Source: a virus
Direction: 5' to 3' (one strand)
Virus record (IMG/VR): IMGVR_UViG_3300049595_001665
Location: 1 to 27,995 of that record
Length of the DNA stretch: 27,995 nt
Shown in pieces: positions 19,211-24,046 of the stretch. The notes under the pieces are model-generated. The model was not told the origin of the DNA and made no database searches. It worked only from the letters and a program-made list of their open reading frames with translations. Each line of letters starts with the position of its first letter. The first letter of the stretch is position 1. The position numbers and the translations under genes were made by a program.

Positions 19211-19409
19211 TAAAACCGTTAATAGTGATTTGGGTGCTGTTAGCGGCAGTTTATCTCACGATATTTATTTATTTAAGGTAAAAGATTATACAACTATTTT
19301 ACTTGGTAGATACCACGATGGAAAATTCTACATTCAACGTGGAGATGGAGTAAAATATGAGTATGAAGCGTACAGAGTTGTTTGGAAACGGTTACTAAAT
19401 TGCCACTAA
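19188..19409 (+). CDS. Cassette 1 open reading frame, unknown
   Basis: 73 residues if started at ATG 19188 (ATG 19185 is equally possible). The frame runs upstream through DUF3310 coding sequence, so the start is uncertain. It crosses the module end GTTAGCGGC at 19239-19247 and stops with TGC CAC TAA inside the module end GCCACTAAC. The recognisable protein begins about at SHDIYLFKVKDYTT and includes LLGRYHDGKFYIQRGDG and YEAYRVVWKRL, a small beta-rich domain. No ATG lies within the module upstream of this, so either the product is fused to phage sequence or an unusual start is used. Confidence 0.5.
   Translation: MHETPINNKTVNSDLGAVSGSLSHDIYLFKVKDYTTILLGRYHDGKFYIQRGDGVKYEYEAYRVVWKRLLNCH
19239..19247 (+). 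repeat. Left end mark of cassette 1 (GTTAGCGGC)
   Basis: GTTAGCGGC here is complementary, with one mismatch, to GCCACTAAC at 19402-19410. It is preceded by GGGTGCT, giving GTGCTGTTAGCGGC, nearly identical to GTGCTGTTAGTGGC at 19526-19539 and sharing GTGCTGTTA with 22650-22658. The rest of the left hairpin arm is not recognisable, so this module is probably truncated on its left. Confidence 0.55.
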
Positions 19410-19539
19410 CGTTTTGCAGATTTGCGTTCGGTGGCGCATTGAACCACCGCAGTTGATTTGAAATACTAAACTTAAAATATATGGCAAAAGATAATTTGAA
19501 ACACGAACCCGCCACTGACGCAAATGTGCTGTTAGTGGC
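19402..19539 (+). repeat. attC-like hairpin site A between cassettes 1 and 2
   Basis: The site runs from GCCACTAAC (19402-19410) to GTTAGTGGC (19531-19539), which are perfect inverted copies. Inside, GCAGATTTGCG (19416-19426) pairs with CGCAAATGTGC (19519-19529) with one mismatch, and the five bases GTTTT between TAAC and GCAG stay unpaired. A further internal hairpin is CGGTGG with CCACCG around 19430-19448. The organisation (outer boxes, unpaired spacer, inner boxes with one odd base, variable centre) recalls integron attC sites, but the spacers are 5 and 1 bases, unlike canonical attC. Confidence 0.65.
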
Positions 19540-19714
19540 TGGTGCAGGAACTAATGATGGTTTATGTATAGGATTTACTTGCAAGATATGTGATGGAACA
19601 CAAACTCTACAAGCATCTTATTACAGAGCAAATGAGTTATTTCCTGTGTGTGATGAATGTTTAAAAGATTTAAAAGAGTTTGTTTTATCGAAACGTGGTA
19701 GCACTTGCCACTAA
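19481..19714 (+). CDS. Cassette 2 protein, CxxC zinc-ribbon-like, 77 aa
   Basis: 77 residues from ATG 19481, which lies in the loop of hairpin site A; no other ATG follows in frame. The first 22 residues are therefore encoded by the hairpin arm and may not be part of the ancestral protein. The conserved-looking part contains CKIC at about residues 35-38 and CDEC at about 58-61, with SYYRANELFPV between, a two-pair cysteine pattern that probably binds zinc. The stop is TGC CAC TAA inside GCCACTAAC, the same ending as the cassette 1 frame. Function unknown. Confidence 0.65.
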   Translation: MAKDNLKHEPATDANVLLVAGAGTNDGLCIGFTCKICDGTQTLQASYYRANELFPVCDECLKDLKEFVLSKRGSTCH

Positions 19715-19842
19715 CGGTTTGAGTATTGCCGAAGGGCAGAATTAGAACGACTAAATTTGCAAACAAGCACTAAAGATGATTAGAACTACAAAAATTCAAT
19801 ACAGCACGACAGCCTGCCTTTTGGCAATACTTTGTTATGGGC
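19707..19842 (+). repeat. attC-like hairpin site B between cassettes 2 and 3
   Basis: The outer boxes are GCCACTAAC (19707-19715) and GTTATGGGC (19834-19842). They pair only at TAAC/GTTA, but each matches its own module perfectly (19531-19539 and 20162-20170). The inner arms at 19723-19739 and 19814-19830 are a 17-base inverted repeat with 2 mismatches (GTATTGCC / GGCAATAC at the core). The 74 bases between the arms contain no clear gene. Confidence 0.68.
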
Positions 19843-19897
19843 TGCCGTTTCAAGATAATGCTCTGGGCGGGCTTTGTAAAACCCACAATTAAATAAA

Positions 19898-20116
19898 ATG
19901 GAAAATTCATTTTTCGACAGGCTTCTAACCGAAGCACAAGAGTTGGCGATTAAAGTAAACGCCTTAAATGACTTTATGAGAACGCAAAAATTTGTTGACC
20001 TTGACAGGCAGAACAAAGACTTGCTTTACAAGCAGTCAAGATTGATGAACGAGTATTTACAAGTACTTGGTCAACGAATTGAATTACTTGGAGAAAAATT
20101 TTCATTTCCAAAGTAA
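19898..20116 (+). CDS. acb2-like: Acb2-like (crAss001_48-related) anti-CBASS candidate
   Basis: 72 residues from ATG 19898 in cassette 3. The protein is entirely helical and matches, by pattern, the small phage family that includes Acb2 (T4 Vs.4) and crAss001_48-related proteins: FDRLLTEAQELAIKVNALNDF, then FVDLDRQNKDLLYKQSRLMNEY and the ending VLGQRIELL. Acb2 forms hexamers that bind cyclic nucleotides and so silence CBASS (and related cyclic-nucleotide) immunity. The size matches the family. The cassette setting, flanked by an inverted repeat, suggests recent acquisition. The family call is from memory and has not been checked by a profile search. Confidence 0.65.
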   Translation: MENSFFDRLLTEAQELAIKVNALNDFMRTQKFVDLDRQNKDLLYKQSRLMNEYLQVLGQRIELLGEKFSFPK

Positions 20117-20117
20117 T

Positions 20118-20170
20118 CTTGTGGGTTTCGTAGGATGGTTTTTCGGGACTGTCCTACGGTTGCCCATAAC
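20118..20170 (+). repeat. Right end of cassette 3 with hairpin
   Basis: The inverted copy of the module's left end occurs here: GTTATGGGCTGCCGT (19834-19848) against ACGGTTGCCCATAAC (20156-20170), 13 of 15 bases complementary. CTTGTGGGTTT near 20118 also mirrors AAACCCACAA near 19880. A local hairpin is formed by CGTAGGA and TCCTACG (about 20129-20158), with a 16-base loop. Confidence 0.6.
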
Positions 20171-20208
20171 TACCTACTACCCGCTACAAACATTCGCATA
20201 CACAACAA
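20167..20208 (+). repeat. 42-base element next to the cassette insertion, copy 1
   Basis: From TAAC at the cassette end the sequence TAACTACCnnCTACCCGCTA, eight variable bases, then CGC and ACAACAA is also found, with the same spacing, at 24005-24046 after the second insertion. Both copies lie just upstream of an ATG (20220 and 24054). It may be a recognised insertion target or a conserved gene leader. Confidence 0.6.
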
Positions 20209-22407: not shown

Positions 22408-22577
22408 TACGACCACACTCCGACCGAAACCAAGGCCGCAAATTAGAGCCGCCTGCCGTGCGTATACGCATACCCGAAATGTACCGTGACCACATCCGAG
22501 CCGAAATCAAACGGCTCAAAGCTACTGCTGAATACAAGGCGGTTATGAAGCGGATAAATGATGAGGATGGGGATTGA
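22404..22577 (+). CDS. 57-aa basic helical protein
   Basis: ATG 22404 overlaps the previous stop. The protein has a disordered basic start (MIRPHSDRNQGRKLEPP), a short VRIRIPEMY strand-turn that recalls small ribbon-helix-helix DNA-binding proteins, then a basic helix (RAEIKRLKATAEYKAVMKRI) and an acidic end. The DNA-binding idea is weak. The second cassette-like insertion begins two bases after its stop. Confidence 0.55.
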   Translation: MIRPHSDRNQGRKLEPPAVRIRIPEMYRDHIRAEIKRLKATAEYKAVMKRINDEDGD

Positions 22578-22578
22578 T

Positions 22579-22663
22579 TAACGTTTCGCAGATAGGCGAA
22601 GGCACAAATAGCGTTGGCATTGTGCGGTGGAATTTGGGCTTTTGCTTATGTGCTGTTATACGC
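22579..22663 (+). repeat. attC-like hairpin site C, left end of cassette 4
   Basis: TAAC at 22579-22582 and GTTATACGC at 22655-22663 bound the site. GCAGATAGGCGAAGG (22588-22602) pairs with CTTTTGCTTATGTGC (22639-22653) with 11 Watson-Crick pairs, 3 G-T pairs and one mismatch; the mismatch (the G of GCAG) is at the same place as in site A. The spacer GTTTC (22583-22587) is unpaired. The motif TAACGTTTYGCAGATWKGCG and the end ATGTGCTGTTA are shared with site A. Confidence 0.68.
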
Positions 22664-22715
22664 TGTTTGTTTTAATTTTTTGTGCGGTGGGAATTAATCA
22701 TTAAAAAATAAATAT
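22664..22715 (+). promoter_or_regulatory. Cassette 4 leader with direct repeat
   Basis: TTGTGCGGTGG at 22680-22690 repeats the same 11 bases at 22620-22630, followed by (G)AATT in both. An A/T-rich leader (aaaaaataaatat) precedes ATG 22716. I see no clear TTTG/TAnnTTTG promoter in this stretch. Confidence 0.35.
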
Positions 22716-23114
22716 ATGAAACAAGTTGATATGTTTGGTCAAGAGTTTGCACCAAATCAAGATGAAAAAAAATATTCATCAAAGATTGAAGCACCTATTT
22801 ATGAGCCGAAAAACGCAAAGCCACATTTAATGGAACTTTGCGACAAAAGCAAAACCCATAGATTAATGAGGGAAATTGATATGTCTAATTTACCTATTGA
22901 AGAAAAGAACTTTTTAATGGATGCAGCAAGGAGGCACAATGTTTTTAACTATGAGAAAGTAGCTGATTACTATGCTCACGCTACGCCCGAAATGCAACAG
23001 TTAATGGAACGAAGCGGATTGGTAATTATAGACTTTGAAAAGGCAATACAATATGGCTATGTGAAACTATGTGATGAAATTAGAAATCAATACCTTACCG
23101 AGTATGGAAAATAA
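22716..23114 (+). CDS. Partner protein of the base-glycosylation enzyme
   Basis: 132 residues from ATG 22716. The sequence is helical and charged, with YEPKNAKPHLMELCDKSK, then FLMDAARRHNVFNYEKVADYYAHATPEMQ and LMERSGLVIIDFEKAIQYGY. I recall similar domains encoded next to TET-associated glycosyltransferases in phages, sometimes within larger proteins. There is no known catalytic motif, so it may be an adaptor. It overlaps the glycosyltransferase gene by 11 bases, so the two are probably made together. The adjacency is seen in the sequence; the family link is from memory. Confidence 0.6.
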   Translation: MKQVDMFGQEFAPNQDEKKYSSKIEAPIYEPKNAKPHLMELCDKSKTHRLMREIDMSNLPIEEKNFLMDAARRHNVFNYEKVADYYAHATPEMQQLMERSGLVIIDFEKAIQYGYVKLCDEIRNQYLTEYGK

Positions 23115-23961
23115 ATATTTTGCAGTATTTATACTGACACACGGCAGACCTGACAATGTATTGACATATAAAACATTATTAAAGTGTGGATATAAAGGCA
23201 AGGTTTATTTCGTAATTGATAATGAGGATAAATGTATTGAACAATATCAAAAAAACTTTGGAGTTGAAAATGTAATGGTATTTGACAAAAAAGCAATGGC
23301 TGATAAAACAGATGAAGCCAATAACTTTGATAACAGAAAGGTTATTGTTCACGCAAGAAATTACTGTTTTGAATTAGCTGAACAATTAGGATATAAATAC
23401 TTTATTCAACTTGATGATGATTACTACGAATTTATTTATAAGTTTAGCGATACAAAGGGGCAAGTTTTATCTAAAGATATAAATAAGATTTTTGATTTGA
23501 TGTTTGCTTTTTATAAAAGCACTTCTGCTTTATCAATTTGCTTTGCTCAAACAGGTGACTTTATTGGAGGTGTTGATAACGGGAAAGGTGTTTATAGATT
23601 TGCAAAGAGAAAATGTATGAACTCATTTTTCTGCTCAACCGAAAGACCTTTTAGATTTGTTGGCTCAATTAATGAAGATGTAAATACTTATACAACACTT
23701 GCAGGAATGGGTGGACTTTTTTTAACAATACCTGTTTTTGCAATAAATCAAAAGGATAGCCAAACACAAAAAAGCGGAATGAGTGATATTTACAAGTTGC
23801 AGGGAACTTATATAAAATCATTTACAACAGTATTGATGCAACCAAGTAATGTAAGTATTTCAATGATGAATGCTTCGCATAAAAGAATACATCATTCTAT
23901 AAAATGGATAAATACAACACCAATGATAATTAGTGAAAAGTATAAAAAATTAAATCATTAA
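23104..23961 (+). CDS. TET-associated glycosyltransferase (TAGT-like)
   Basis: 285 residues; ATG 23104 is preferred to an upstream start at 23071 because the domain begins at once (KYFAVFILTHGRPDNVLTY). The features fit the TET/JBP-associated glycosyltransferase family: the THGRP start, VIDNEDK, the ARNYC element near residue 84, a LDDDYYEF motif at 103-110 (the metal-binding acidic cluster), DFIGGVDNGKG, a RPFRFVGSINEDVNTYT block and the terminal HHSIKW. These enzymes are thought to put a sugar on hydroxymethylated bases in phage DNA, protecting it from restriction. No hydroxylase or hydroxymethylase is in the window. Confidence 0.78.
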   Translation: MENKYFAVFILTHGRPDNVLTYKTLLKCGYKGKVYFVIDNEDKCIEQYQKNFGVENVMVFDKKAMADKTDEANNFDNRKVIVHARNYCFELAEQLGYKYFIQLDDDYYEFIYKFSDTKGQVLSKDINKIFDLMFAFYKSTSALSICFAQTGDFIGGVDNGKGVYRFAKRKCMNSFFCSTERPFRFVGSINEDVNTYTTLAGMGGLFLTIPVFAINQKDSQTQKSGMSDIYKLQGTYIKSFTTVLMQPSNVSISMMNASHKRIHHSIKWINTTPMIISEKYKKLNH

Positions 23962-23999
23962 ATCATTTGAGCGTGGGCAAAAAAAAATTAAAACAAATT

Positions 24000-24008
24000 G
24001 CGTATAAC
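24000..24008 (+). repeat. Right end of cassette 4 (GCGTATAAC)
   Basis: A perfect inverted copy of GTTATACGC at 22655-22663. Together with TAAC at 22579-22582 it also gives TAAC direct repeats on both sides of the inserted segment. Confidence 0.65.
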
Positions 24009-24046
24009 TACCCGCTACCCGCTAATTATTAACGCTTATACAACAA
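24005..24046 (+). repeat. 42-base element next to the cassette insertion, copy 2
   Basis: Same organisation and length as 20167-20208: TAACTACC, two variable bases, CTACCCGCTA, eight variable bases, then CGC, TTA-like bases and ACAACAA. It lies directly before the leader of the gene at 24054. Confidence 0.6.

Follow-up and report, generated by a model that had tools for sequence, protein, structure and literature searches.

Gene cassettes of an integron-like system in Bacteroidota phages, likely moved by a XerA-like recombinase

Results

Two arrays of cassette-like modules in a phage genome

The stretch of DNA analysed here, referred to as the window, is a whole virus record of IMG/VR (IMGVR_UViG_3300049595_001665) of 27,995 bases. 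The record is considered to be that of a phage because of profile matches to portal-like, tape-measure-like, virion, Sak4-like and Gam-like proteins. It contains two arrays of small modules that carry inverted end boxes and long hairpins and that resemble, in these respects, the gene cassettes of integrons. The features of the two arrays are as follows.

19230–19242, + strand: remnant of a hairpin right arm, TTGGGTGCTGTTA, ahead of module 1; the left arm was not seen
19239–19410, + strand: module 1, with boxes GTTAGCGGC (19239–19247) and GCCACTAAC (19402–19410), 8/9 matching
19407–19534, + strand: site A, attC-like hairpin TAACGTTTTGCAG...GTGCTGTTA; covariance model match at 19398–19543
19411–19715, + strand: cassette 2, consisting of hairpin A, a gene and GCCACTAAC; 19531–19539 and 19707–19715 match 9/9
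19481–19714, + strand: cassette 2 gene, 77 amino acids, start codon within the hairpin
19712–19837, + strand: site B, hairpin of another sequence type, recognised by folding and boxes
19716–20170, + strand: cassette 3, consisting of hairpin B, a gene and GCCCATAAC; 19834–19842 and 20162–20170 match 9/9
19898–20116, + strand: cassette 3 gene, 72 amino acids, crAss001_48-related protein (PF21825)
20167–20187, + strand: right border of the first array, TAACTACCTACTACCCGCTAC
22579–22658, + strand: site C, attC-like hairpin of a fourth cassette; covariance model match at 22572–22667
22655–24008, + strand: body of the fourth cassette, with two open reading frames (ORFs) and perfectly matching boxes GTTATACGC (22655–22663) and GCGTATAAC (24000–24008)
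23071–23961, + strand: ORF for a TAGT-type glycosyltransferase (PF20691) in the fourth cassette
24005–24022, + strand: second, similar right border, TAACTACCCGCTACCCGC

The first-pass annotation of this DNA had described three consecutive modules that open with GTTAnnnGC and close with its inverted copy, separated by hairpins with outer spacers of 5 and 1 bases. The boxes are located exactly where that annotation had placed them, with matches of 8/9, 9/9 and 9/9, and the spacer lengths are correct. On the + strand the two hairpins fold better than dinucleotide shuffles of the same sequence (19402–19539, z −4.8, with 0/200 shuffles as good; 19707–19842, z −2.9, with 1/200). Cassette 2 is bounded by GTTAGTGGC at 19531 and GCCACTAAC at 19707, and cassette 3 by GTTATGGGC at 19834 and GCCCATAAC at 20162. 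The fourth module, which extends from hairpin to end box over 22579–24008, lies beyond the range of the earlier description, and its hairpin (22579–22658) is weak by folding alone (z −1.9, 10/200 shuffles as good). A covariance model made from relatives, R1, gave scores of 59 bits (E 4e-12) at site A and 54 bits (E 6e-11) at the site of the fourth module. Rfam at gathering scores returned zero matches in the window, and the hairpins are therefore not explained by any curated RNA family.

The small ORF of module 1 matches phrog_31837, a family of unknown function, and the 77-residue protein of cassette 2 gave only weak zinc-finger-type matches in Pfam, every one below cut-off. The TET-associated-type glycosyltransferase (PF20691) of the fourth cassette suggests a DNA-modification cargo. 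Both arrays are closed by an alike right border, TAACTACC..CTACCCGC. The possibility that the window right border, TAACTACCYRCTACYCGCTAC, is a general attI was rejected, as it occurs in just 8 stretches of the viral collection, all of them in contigs already found as relatives of the window phage. With at least two attC-type sites, recognised by structure only, and no integrase in the record, the window has the composition of a cluster of attC sites lacking integron integrases (CALIN).

A structured hairpin family with strand polarity

A pattern derived from site A was present in at least 119 stretches of the viral collection. A relaxed two-ended search across the collected loci identified 224 sites, compared with 1 in a shuffled copy, a count that shows the other end to be present and not its frequency, because most of the loci were fetched via part of the pattern. 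A different two-ended pattern, for which the count is not directly comparable with the viral one, yielded no more than 8 stretches from 84,980 genomes of bacteria and archaea. Among 46 diverse sites 87.5% of hairpin cells are paired, against 65.6% in shuffles. Two-sided compensatory changes occupy 239 cells, compared with 86.7 ± 6.6 in shuffles and 58–92 for slid versions of the structure, which itself had been derived from the same 46 sequences. Exactly one of two adjacent pairs is non-Watson-Crick in 37 of the 46 rows (none in 8, both in 1), while one T is invariant in all rows with a G opposite in 33. The hairpins are, like attC sites, variable in sequence and conserved in structure, and their inverted R boxes pair within the cassette.

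The family displays a marked strand polarity, the + strand folding better in 156 of 179 distinct sites and the − strand in 8; the better-folding strand is the equivalent of the bottom strand of an integron attC. Canonical attC sites have an unpaired central spacer on both arms, and extrahelical bases that select the bottom strand, as set out in the available part of PMC2727003. The polarity fits the folded-strand mechanism of integrons, short of proof.

Many of the long hairpins contain start codons. In 23 of 40 hairpins of 120–139 bases the start codon of the longest ORF lies inside the hairpin, as in cassette 2 of the window. Unrelated small proteins share N-terminal peptides because the start codon sits inside the hairpin site; the arms of hairpins of 120–130 bases (L193, L168, L221 and others) encode similar peptides, such as ..LGIGAVS and ..NGNKSKPLL.

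The cassette comprises a hairpin and its downstream gene

Among 1,263 pairs that have a hairpin in common and leave room on both sides of it, the downstream neighbour alone is shared by 179, the upstream neighbour alone by 3 and both neighbours by 29. The excess of downstream over upstream sharing indicates that the cassette consists of the hairpin and the downstream gene, and a hairpin travelling with its upstream gene, as in ordinary integrons, was rejected on these counts (3 versus 179 pairs). The shared part begins at the T of TAAC, or one base earlier, in 861 of 1,305 alignments; neither these alignments nor the pairs are independent counts, because the loci include overlapping copies of the same records.

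Box agreement was assessed between neighbouring sites less than 1.5 kb apart in the loci fetched by the recombinase described below, after exclusion of six near-duplicate loci and of 6 sites that lacked exact boxes. The first three box bases agree within the cassette in 82 of 124 neighbouring pairs, against a mean of 13.8 and a maximum of 26 in 500 shuffles. Agreement is 44/48 in pairs under 300 bp apart, and just 20/188 across one site.

In 79 of 81 box-matched phage cassettes the longest ORF shares the strand of the hairpin, which is located 5′ of it. Phage cassette genes are therefore not oriented toward their attC but inverted, and the earlier remark that gene orientation relative to the hairpin differs from that of known attC sites is upheld. 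When ten cassette proteins, among the longest, were scanned against Pfam, six gave matches; the cargo comprised three DNA methyltransferases, one RNA ligase and one YopX protein, and a single PARP-like match fell below cut-off.

A XerA-like recombinase and an attI-like site adjoin the arrays

Seven of the eight PF00589 recombinases recovered from the longest site-bearing viral records are, by eye, one kind of protein, with open frames of 265–301 residues in six and 171 in the seventh, and for five of the seven a hairpin site is no more than about 2.5 kb away in the collected loci. Linkage was quantified in 80 loci fetched by the recombinase protein alone (the best 80 of 91). At E ≤ 0.1, R1 identified 219 hairpins in these loci, all on the recombinase strand, of which 215 are spread over the 541 kb upstream of the recombinase and 4 over the 629 kb downstream; 64 of the 215 are within 1 kb of the recombinase, and at least one hairpin is present in 59 of the 80 loci. 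The control for R1 was provided by its E-values together with this strand and side asymmetry. The covariance search, which the first-pass annotation had put forward as a check, thus detects the hairpins at E-values far below chance, on a single strand and on a single side of the recombinase gene. The only four downstream hairpins are all in one record (L160, 18572–20385), where they possibly represent a second array.

In an alignment of 25 rows the columns R134, K159/K162, H218-x-x-R221, H244 and Y253 are invariant. We take these residues to be the catalytic set, and the arrays, as in integrons, have a tyrosine recombinase with the set complete. The closest proteins in sequence are of the XerA type (PDB 4a8e); IntI4 is second and aligns in two pieces, its residues 182–258, the stretch with the extra domain, having no counterpart of that length in the phage recombinase. 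The predicted structure (mean predicted local distance difference test score 86) displays the usual XerA/XerH/IntI fold, with XerA the best match (Z 20.5) and IntI4 at Z 18.1; rows within one Z unit are tied, and XerH, XerC-like proteins and IntI4 lie together below XerA, the fold not separating them.

The distance between the motifs KGxKDR and HxLRH is 52–54 residues in 62 of 65 phage proteins (3 were not measured), 53–59 in 24 chromosomal relatives and 62–70 in the seven Xer proteins measured. Of eight IntI proteins, the one measured with the strict motif gave 100, and a looser motif gave 105 in four and, through matching a later place, 30–33 in the other four. Three phage recombinases scored 151–176 bits with TIGR02249, for which the cut-off is 265. 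The additional domain that sets IntI apart (available parts of PMC9668308 and PMC9024848) is absent from the phage recombinase. In a tree of 75 proteins the eight IntI rows form their own clade (100/100), and the 25 phage rows are in another clade (100/100) with two rows from bacterial assemblies, and so do not belong to the integrase clade; the tree is midpoint rooted, with the bootstrap not settled, 18 forks open and archaeal XerA not included, and no ancestry of IntI from these recombinases is claimed on its basis. The two bacterial-assembly recombinases inside the phage clade (L146, 3468–4268, and L337) may be prophage-borne. The large-terminase model PF03237 matched 15 of 48 recombinase-bearing records, 12 above cut-off, and the positive records include five of 195 to 465 kb; those without a match may be fragments or carriers of another terminase family.

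The cassette nearest the recombinase terminates in its box and TAAC, after which a TAYTATATATA-type sequence follows with no hairpin. The strict form of this motif is found 40–122 bases before the recombinase match in 43 of 61 loci and, with the end base relaxed, in 54 of the 61, where random windows drawn from these loci would give about 0.8. The TAAC-TAYTATATATA motif is an attI-like site and stands, as attI does in integrons, beside the integrase gene.

Whole cassettes are present or absent at exact joints

The gene to the right of the first array of the window is common to twenty contigs. Between the shared flanks, L286, L298 and L300 contain no cassettes, while L284 has module 1 alone, with GCCACTAAC joined directly to the border and cassettes 2 and 3 absent, the joint being exact. 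Other cassette sets occur between the same flanks in L287, in L288/L289/L291 and in L290/L292/L296. Whichever cassette is present in these relatives, TAAC and a close version of the border come next.

Similar differences are evident in cultured phages. Freya_1–10 (MT732463–MT732472; L382–L394 and L402) are ten Polaribacter phages isolated on one host, with genomes of 44.0–48.9 kb, according to the available part of PMC8776804, in which the words 'integron' and 'cassette' do not occur. In the seven of ten genomes compared, the span before the recombinase measures 46, 888, 1790, 2262, 4086, 4681 and 4988 bp. The genomes differ at the recombinase end by one or more whole segments of small genes; a single segment there separates Freya_5 from 6, and likewise Freya_9 from 10, and an internal segment is absent from Freya_8. 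The joints fall exactly at AAC. Identity is 98–100% in the long shared blocks, dropping only where the alignment overran the joint; the place that corresponds to the attI-like motif is the variable joint. At the joints of Freya_1 and L284, which are at AAC or TAAC, no hairpin remains. The comparison of related phages that had been suggested as a check therefore bears out the prediction of whole modules present or absent with exact joints at TAAC, and in both the Freya and the window-relative comparisons the direction of change, gain or loss, cannot be read. What identifies Freya as a sister version is its joints, its linkage and a small number of box pairs, the last taken from a list that also contains many chance matches. 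A blastn search of annotated phages with one hairpin type found nothing. The Danklef phages of Polaribacter (47.2–48.2 kb; available part of PMC8776804) belong to Freya's genus and are variable in genome size.

It could be argued that the hairpins are merely regulatory, or elements resembling repetitive extragenic palindromic (REP) sequences or IS200/IS605, and that the modules are shuffled by homologous recombination between similar hairpins. Such a model accommodates the start codons in many long hairpins, and the 1,052 of 1,263 pairs that share the hairpin alone, hairpin types recurring beside unrelated genes. It does not, however, explain why joints are exact at TAAC where neighbours have nothing else in common, why boxes agree within cassettes and not across sites, or how the joints of L284 and Freya_1 could hold no hairpin; a Y1 transposase (PF01797), moreover, was detected in only 1 of 30 recombinase-bearing viral records. 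We regard this explanation as extremely unlikely.

A second alternative is that the recombinase is the phage's own lysogeny integrase, near the attachment site of which accessory genes gather for other reasons. The arrays, the matched boxes, the attI-like motif and the whole-cassette differences in Freya make this very unlikely, even though relatives of the enzyme in cultured Ingeline, Freya and Leef phages are annotated as 'integrase' and the Ingeline stretch examined contains no R1 match under E 1. It is possible that the recombinase has a dual role, in lysogeny and in cassette movement.

Chromosomal relatives and IntI genes in Bacteroidota

Relatives of the recombinase (E ≤ 1e-40) are encoded by 85 of 296 sampled Bacteroidota genomes, the best being 47–48% identical over most of the protein. 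R1 matches at E ≤ 0.01 were present in 8 of 20 chromosomal recombinase loci, drawn from the 22 best. L345 contains seven sites, with boxes agreeing in 5 or 6 of 6 bases in all six intervals, and agreement of this degree is found in 16 of 19 intervals of the chromosomal loci checked. In 13 of these 16 box-matched intervals the longest ORF and the hairpin are on different strands, one of the 13 having trivial ORFs. Thus, the orientation usual in integrons, with the gene running toward its hairpin, prevails among the chromosomal relatives in Bacteroidota; Flavobacterium fragile HXWNR69 displays mixed orientations, and its boxes match in only one of three intervals. In phages and in most chromosomal loci the end of the cassette away from the recombinase carries the hairpin, and it is the inner gene that is turned round. 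An R1 scan of the 296 genomes, in which just 16 candidates were scored per genome, gave a match at 1e-5 in only 11.

A third possibility is that a bacterial IntI moves the modules, which would then be ordinary cassettes of a host integron (a CALIN), with the XerA-like gene a mere neighbour. The box logic and hairpin topology are indeed those of attC, and 57 of 198 sampled Bacteroidota genomes contain IntI-family genes that score above the TIGR02249 cut-off. Qi et al. (2023), in the available part of PMC9892861, report attC clusters with cassettes in 21 phages, found by IntI and attC models, and show that IntI1 uses five of six tested phage attC sites, including one of two sites taken from Polaribacter phage P12002L. 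Within the P12002L genome (KR136259, L401; 29.0–39.7 kb, minus strand) R1 identified three weak sites, each just before a methyltransferase gene (28.1, 19.9 and 16.7 bits; E 0.00017, 0.016 and 0.09), and around one of the three the boxes agree in 9/10 bases. A fourth match (19.4 bits, 32290–32260) has no real stem and was not counted. The methyltransferase genes behind these hairpins are probably the CALIN of Qi et al., and the inverted orientation of the R1 sites fits the remark of those authors, in the same available part, on divergent directions. As P12002L holds R1 sites, part of the hairpin family has probably been seen before as pieces of bacterial-type integrons.

In contrast with the host-integron explanation is the observation that R1 at E ≤ 0.5 found no site in the eight IntI loci examined (L276–L283, 117 kb), compared with 215 upstream of the XerA-like recombinase, which is also where the attI-like motif and the cassette differences are located. 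It should be emphasized, however, that simple finders saw no clear attC near those IntI genes either: a strict RYYYAAC/GTTRRRY finder returned nothing near the eight genes, and with a looser one the yield hardly exceeded that of shuffles, L278 (9 versus 1) being the exception. On balance, movement of these modules by a host IntI appears unlikely.

Discussion

The reading of the modules as integron-cassette-like, with which the first-pass annotation began, is supported, and neither of the two outcomes listed there as refuting was observed. The modules are very probably mobile cassettes of an integron-like system in Bacteroidota phages, likely moved by the XerA-like recombinase, and the suggestion that this might be a different cassette system is borne out by a linked recombinase without the IntI-specific domain and by the inversion of the cassette genes. 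In the mechanism that we propose, the cassette unit would be the hairpin site, the gene and the inverted end box, and cassettes would move singly or a few at once by site-specific recombination between GTTAnnn and nnnTAAC ends. The catalyst is most likely the small XerA-like tyrosine recombinase encoded directly downstream of long arrays in related phages, and cassettes would come and go at the attI-like site (TAAC-TAYTATATATA) beside it. The hairpin would recombine most likely as a folded single strand, the equivalent of the attC bottom strand, with TAACTAYTATATATA as the proposed partner site for that strand. As no such recombinase was found in the window record, its cassettes may have been placed by an enzyme that a co-infecting phage or the host supplied, or that a lost or unsequenced part of the genome encoded.

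Several observations weigh against this interpretation. Every enzymatic step, the position of the cut included, is deduced from sequence. A PF00589 search of the window record found no recombinase, and tblastn no relative of one; only 8 of the 50 longest site-bearing viral records contain a PF00589 recombinase, which implies that, if the records are not fragments, most carriers would depend on an enzyme supplied from outside. R1 at E ≤ 0.1 found no hairpin in 21 of the 80 recombinase loci. Nine of these are distant or partial protein matches (L231–L239) and ten others have less than 2 kb of upstream sequence, while L162 and L206 are hairpin-free despite ample upstream sequence and a close recombinase. 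Within the window R1 did not find site B (19707–19842), and the cassette of L288/L289/L291 displayed no matching box pair in the sequence inspected. In 42 of 124 adjacent pairs the boxes fail to agree at all three bases, and missed sites inside these pairs are likely because agreement declines with length. The 1,052 hairpin-sharing pairs with neither neighbour in common indicate that hairpin types spread onto unrelated genes too. Finally, the Freya recombinase is 37% identical to the array-linked phage recombinase, and the Freya stretches have no R1 match under E 1; for these reasons Freya is regarded as a sister version and not the same one.

We consider it probable, with less assurance than the cassette reading itself, that these arrays represent a second kind of integron, spread through phages, in which cassettes are inverted and a XerA-like recombinase lacks the domain considered essential for recombination of attC as a folded single strand. 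With a similar degree of confidence, its range would encompass Bacteroidota phages, with records up to 465 kb, and sister versions in cultured siphoviruses and Bacteroidota chromosomes. If so, viruses own an integron platform and swap single counter-defence and accessory genes via their own cassette pool, and the mosaic accessory regions of many environmental Bacteroidota phages would have a specific, testable cause. Hairpin attC-type recombination would then need no IntI-specific domain, which bears on the origin of integrons. The sister version in the cultured Polaribacter phages Freya_1–10 is directly testable. IntegronFinder identifies IntI through PF00589 plus a profile of the IntI-specific domain (available part of PMC9668308), and because it requires that profile, the phage arrays should escape it as complete integrons.

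Our searches, outside which lay preprints and subscription papers, found no earlier report of the phage recombinase, its attI or the inverted arrays. The available part of Qi et al. (PMC9892861) describes no dedicated non-IntI phage recombinase, attI of such an enzyme or inverted-gene rule, and the words 'Bacteroid', 'Flavobacter' and 'phage' are absent from the available part of PMC8352920. Within the reach of these searches, what is new is the recombinase of the phages and the attI-like site, the rule that phage cassette genes are inverted, the variation in cassettes among cultured phages and the existence of relatives on chromosomes.

The appropriate comparison is with sedentary chromosomal integrons, which consist of IntI, attI and arrays of attC cassettes. 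Like these, the phage system has a tyrosine recombinase at one end with an attI-like site adjoining. Each cassette has its hairpin site at the end away from the recombinase, and its end boxes are complementary to each other. In both systems the sites are variable in sequence and conserved in structure, and cassettes are present or absent beside the recombinase. In contrast to integrons, the phage system is carried by viruses, its recombinase is without the IntI-specific extra domain, and its sites have outer spacers of 5 and 1 bases. Its cassette genes are inverted, with the hairpin 5′ of the gene and often containing the start codon, and are read toward the recombinase. The system thus works like an integron yet departs from three of the defining features tested: the IntI domain, the IntI clade and, in the phages, gene orientation. 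IntI4 of Vibrio cholerae (PDB 2a3v) has the same fold as the phage recombinase, with its extra-domain stretch, 182–258, unmatched. XerA- and XerH-type enzymes (PDB 5hxy, 4a8e and 5jjv) are the closest by sequence (4a8e) and the top matches by fold. These are chromosome-resolution recombinases at dif, whereas their phage counterparts sit at cassette arrays.

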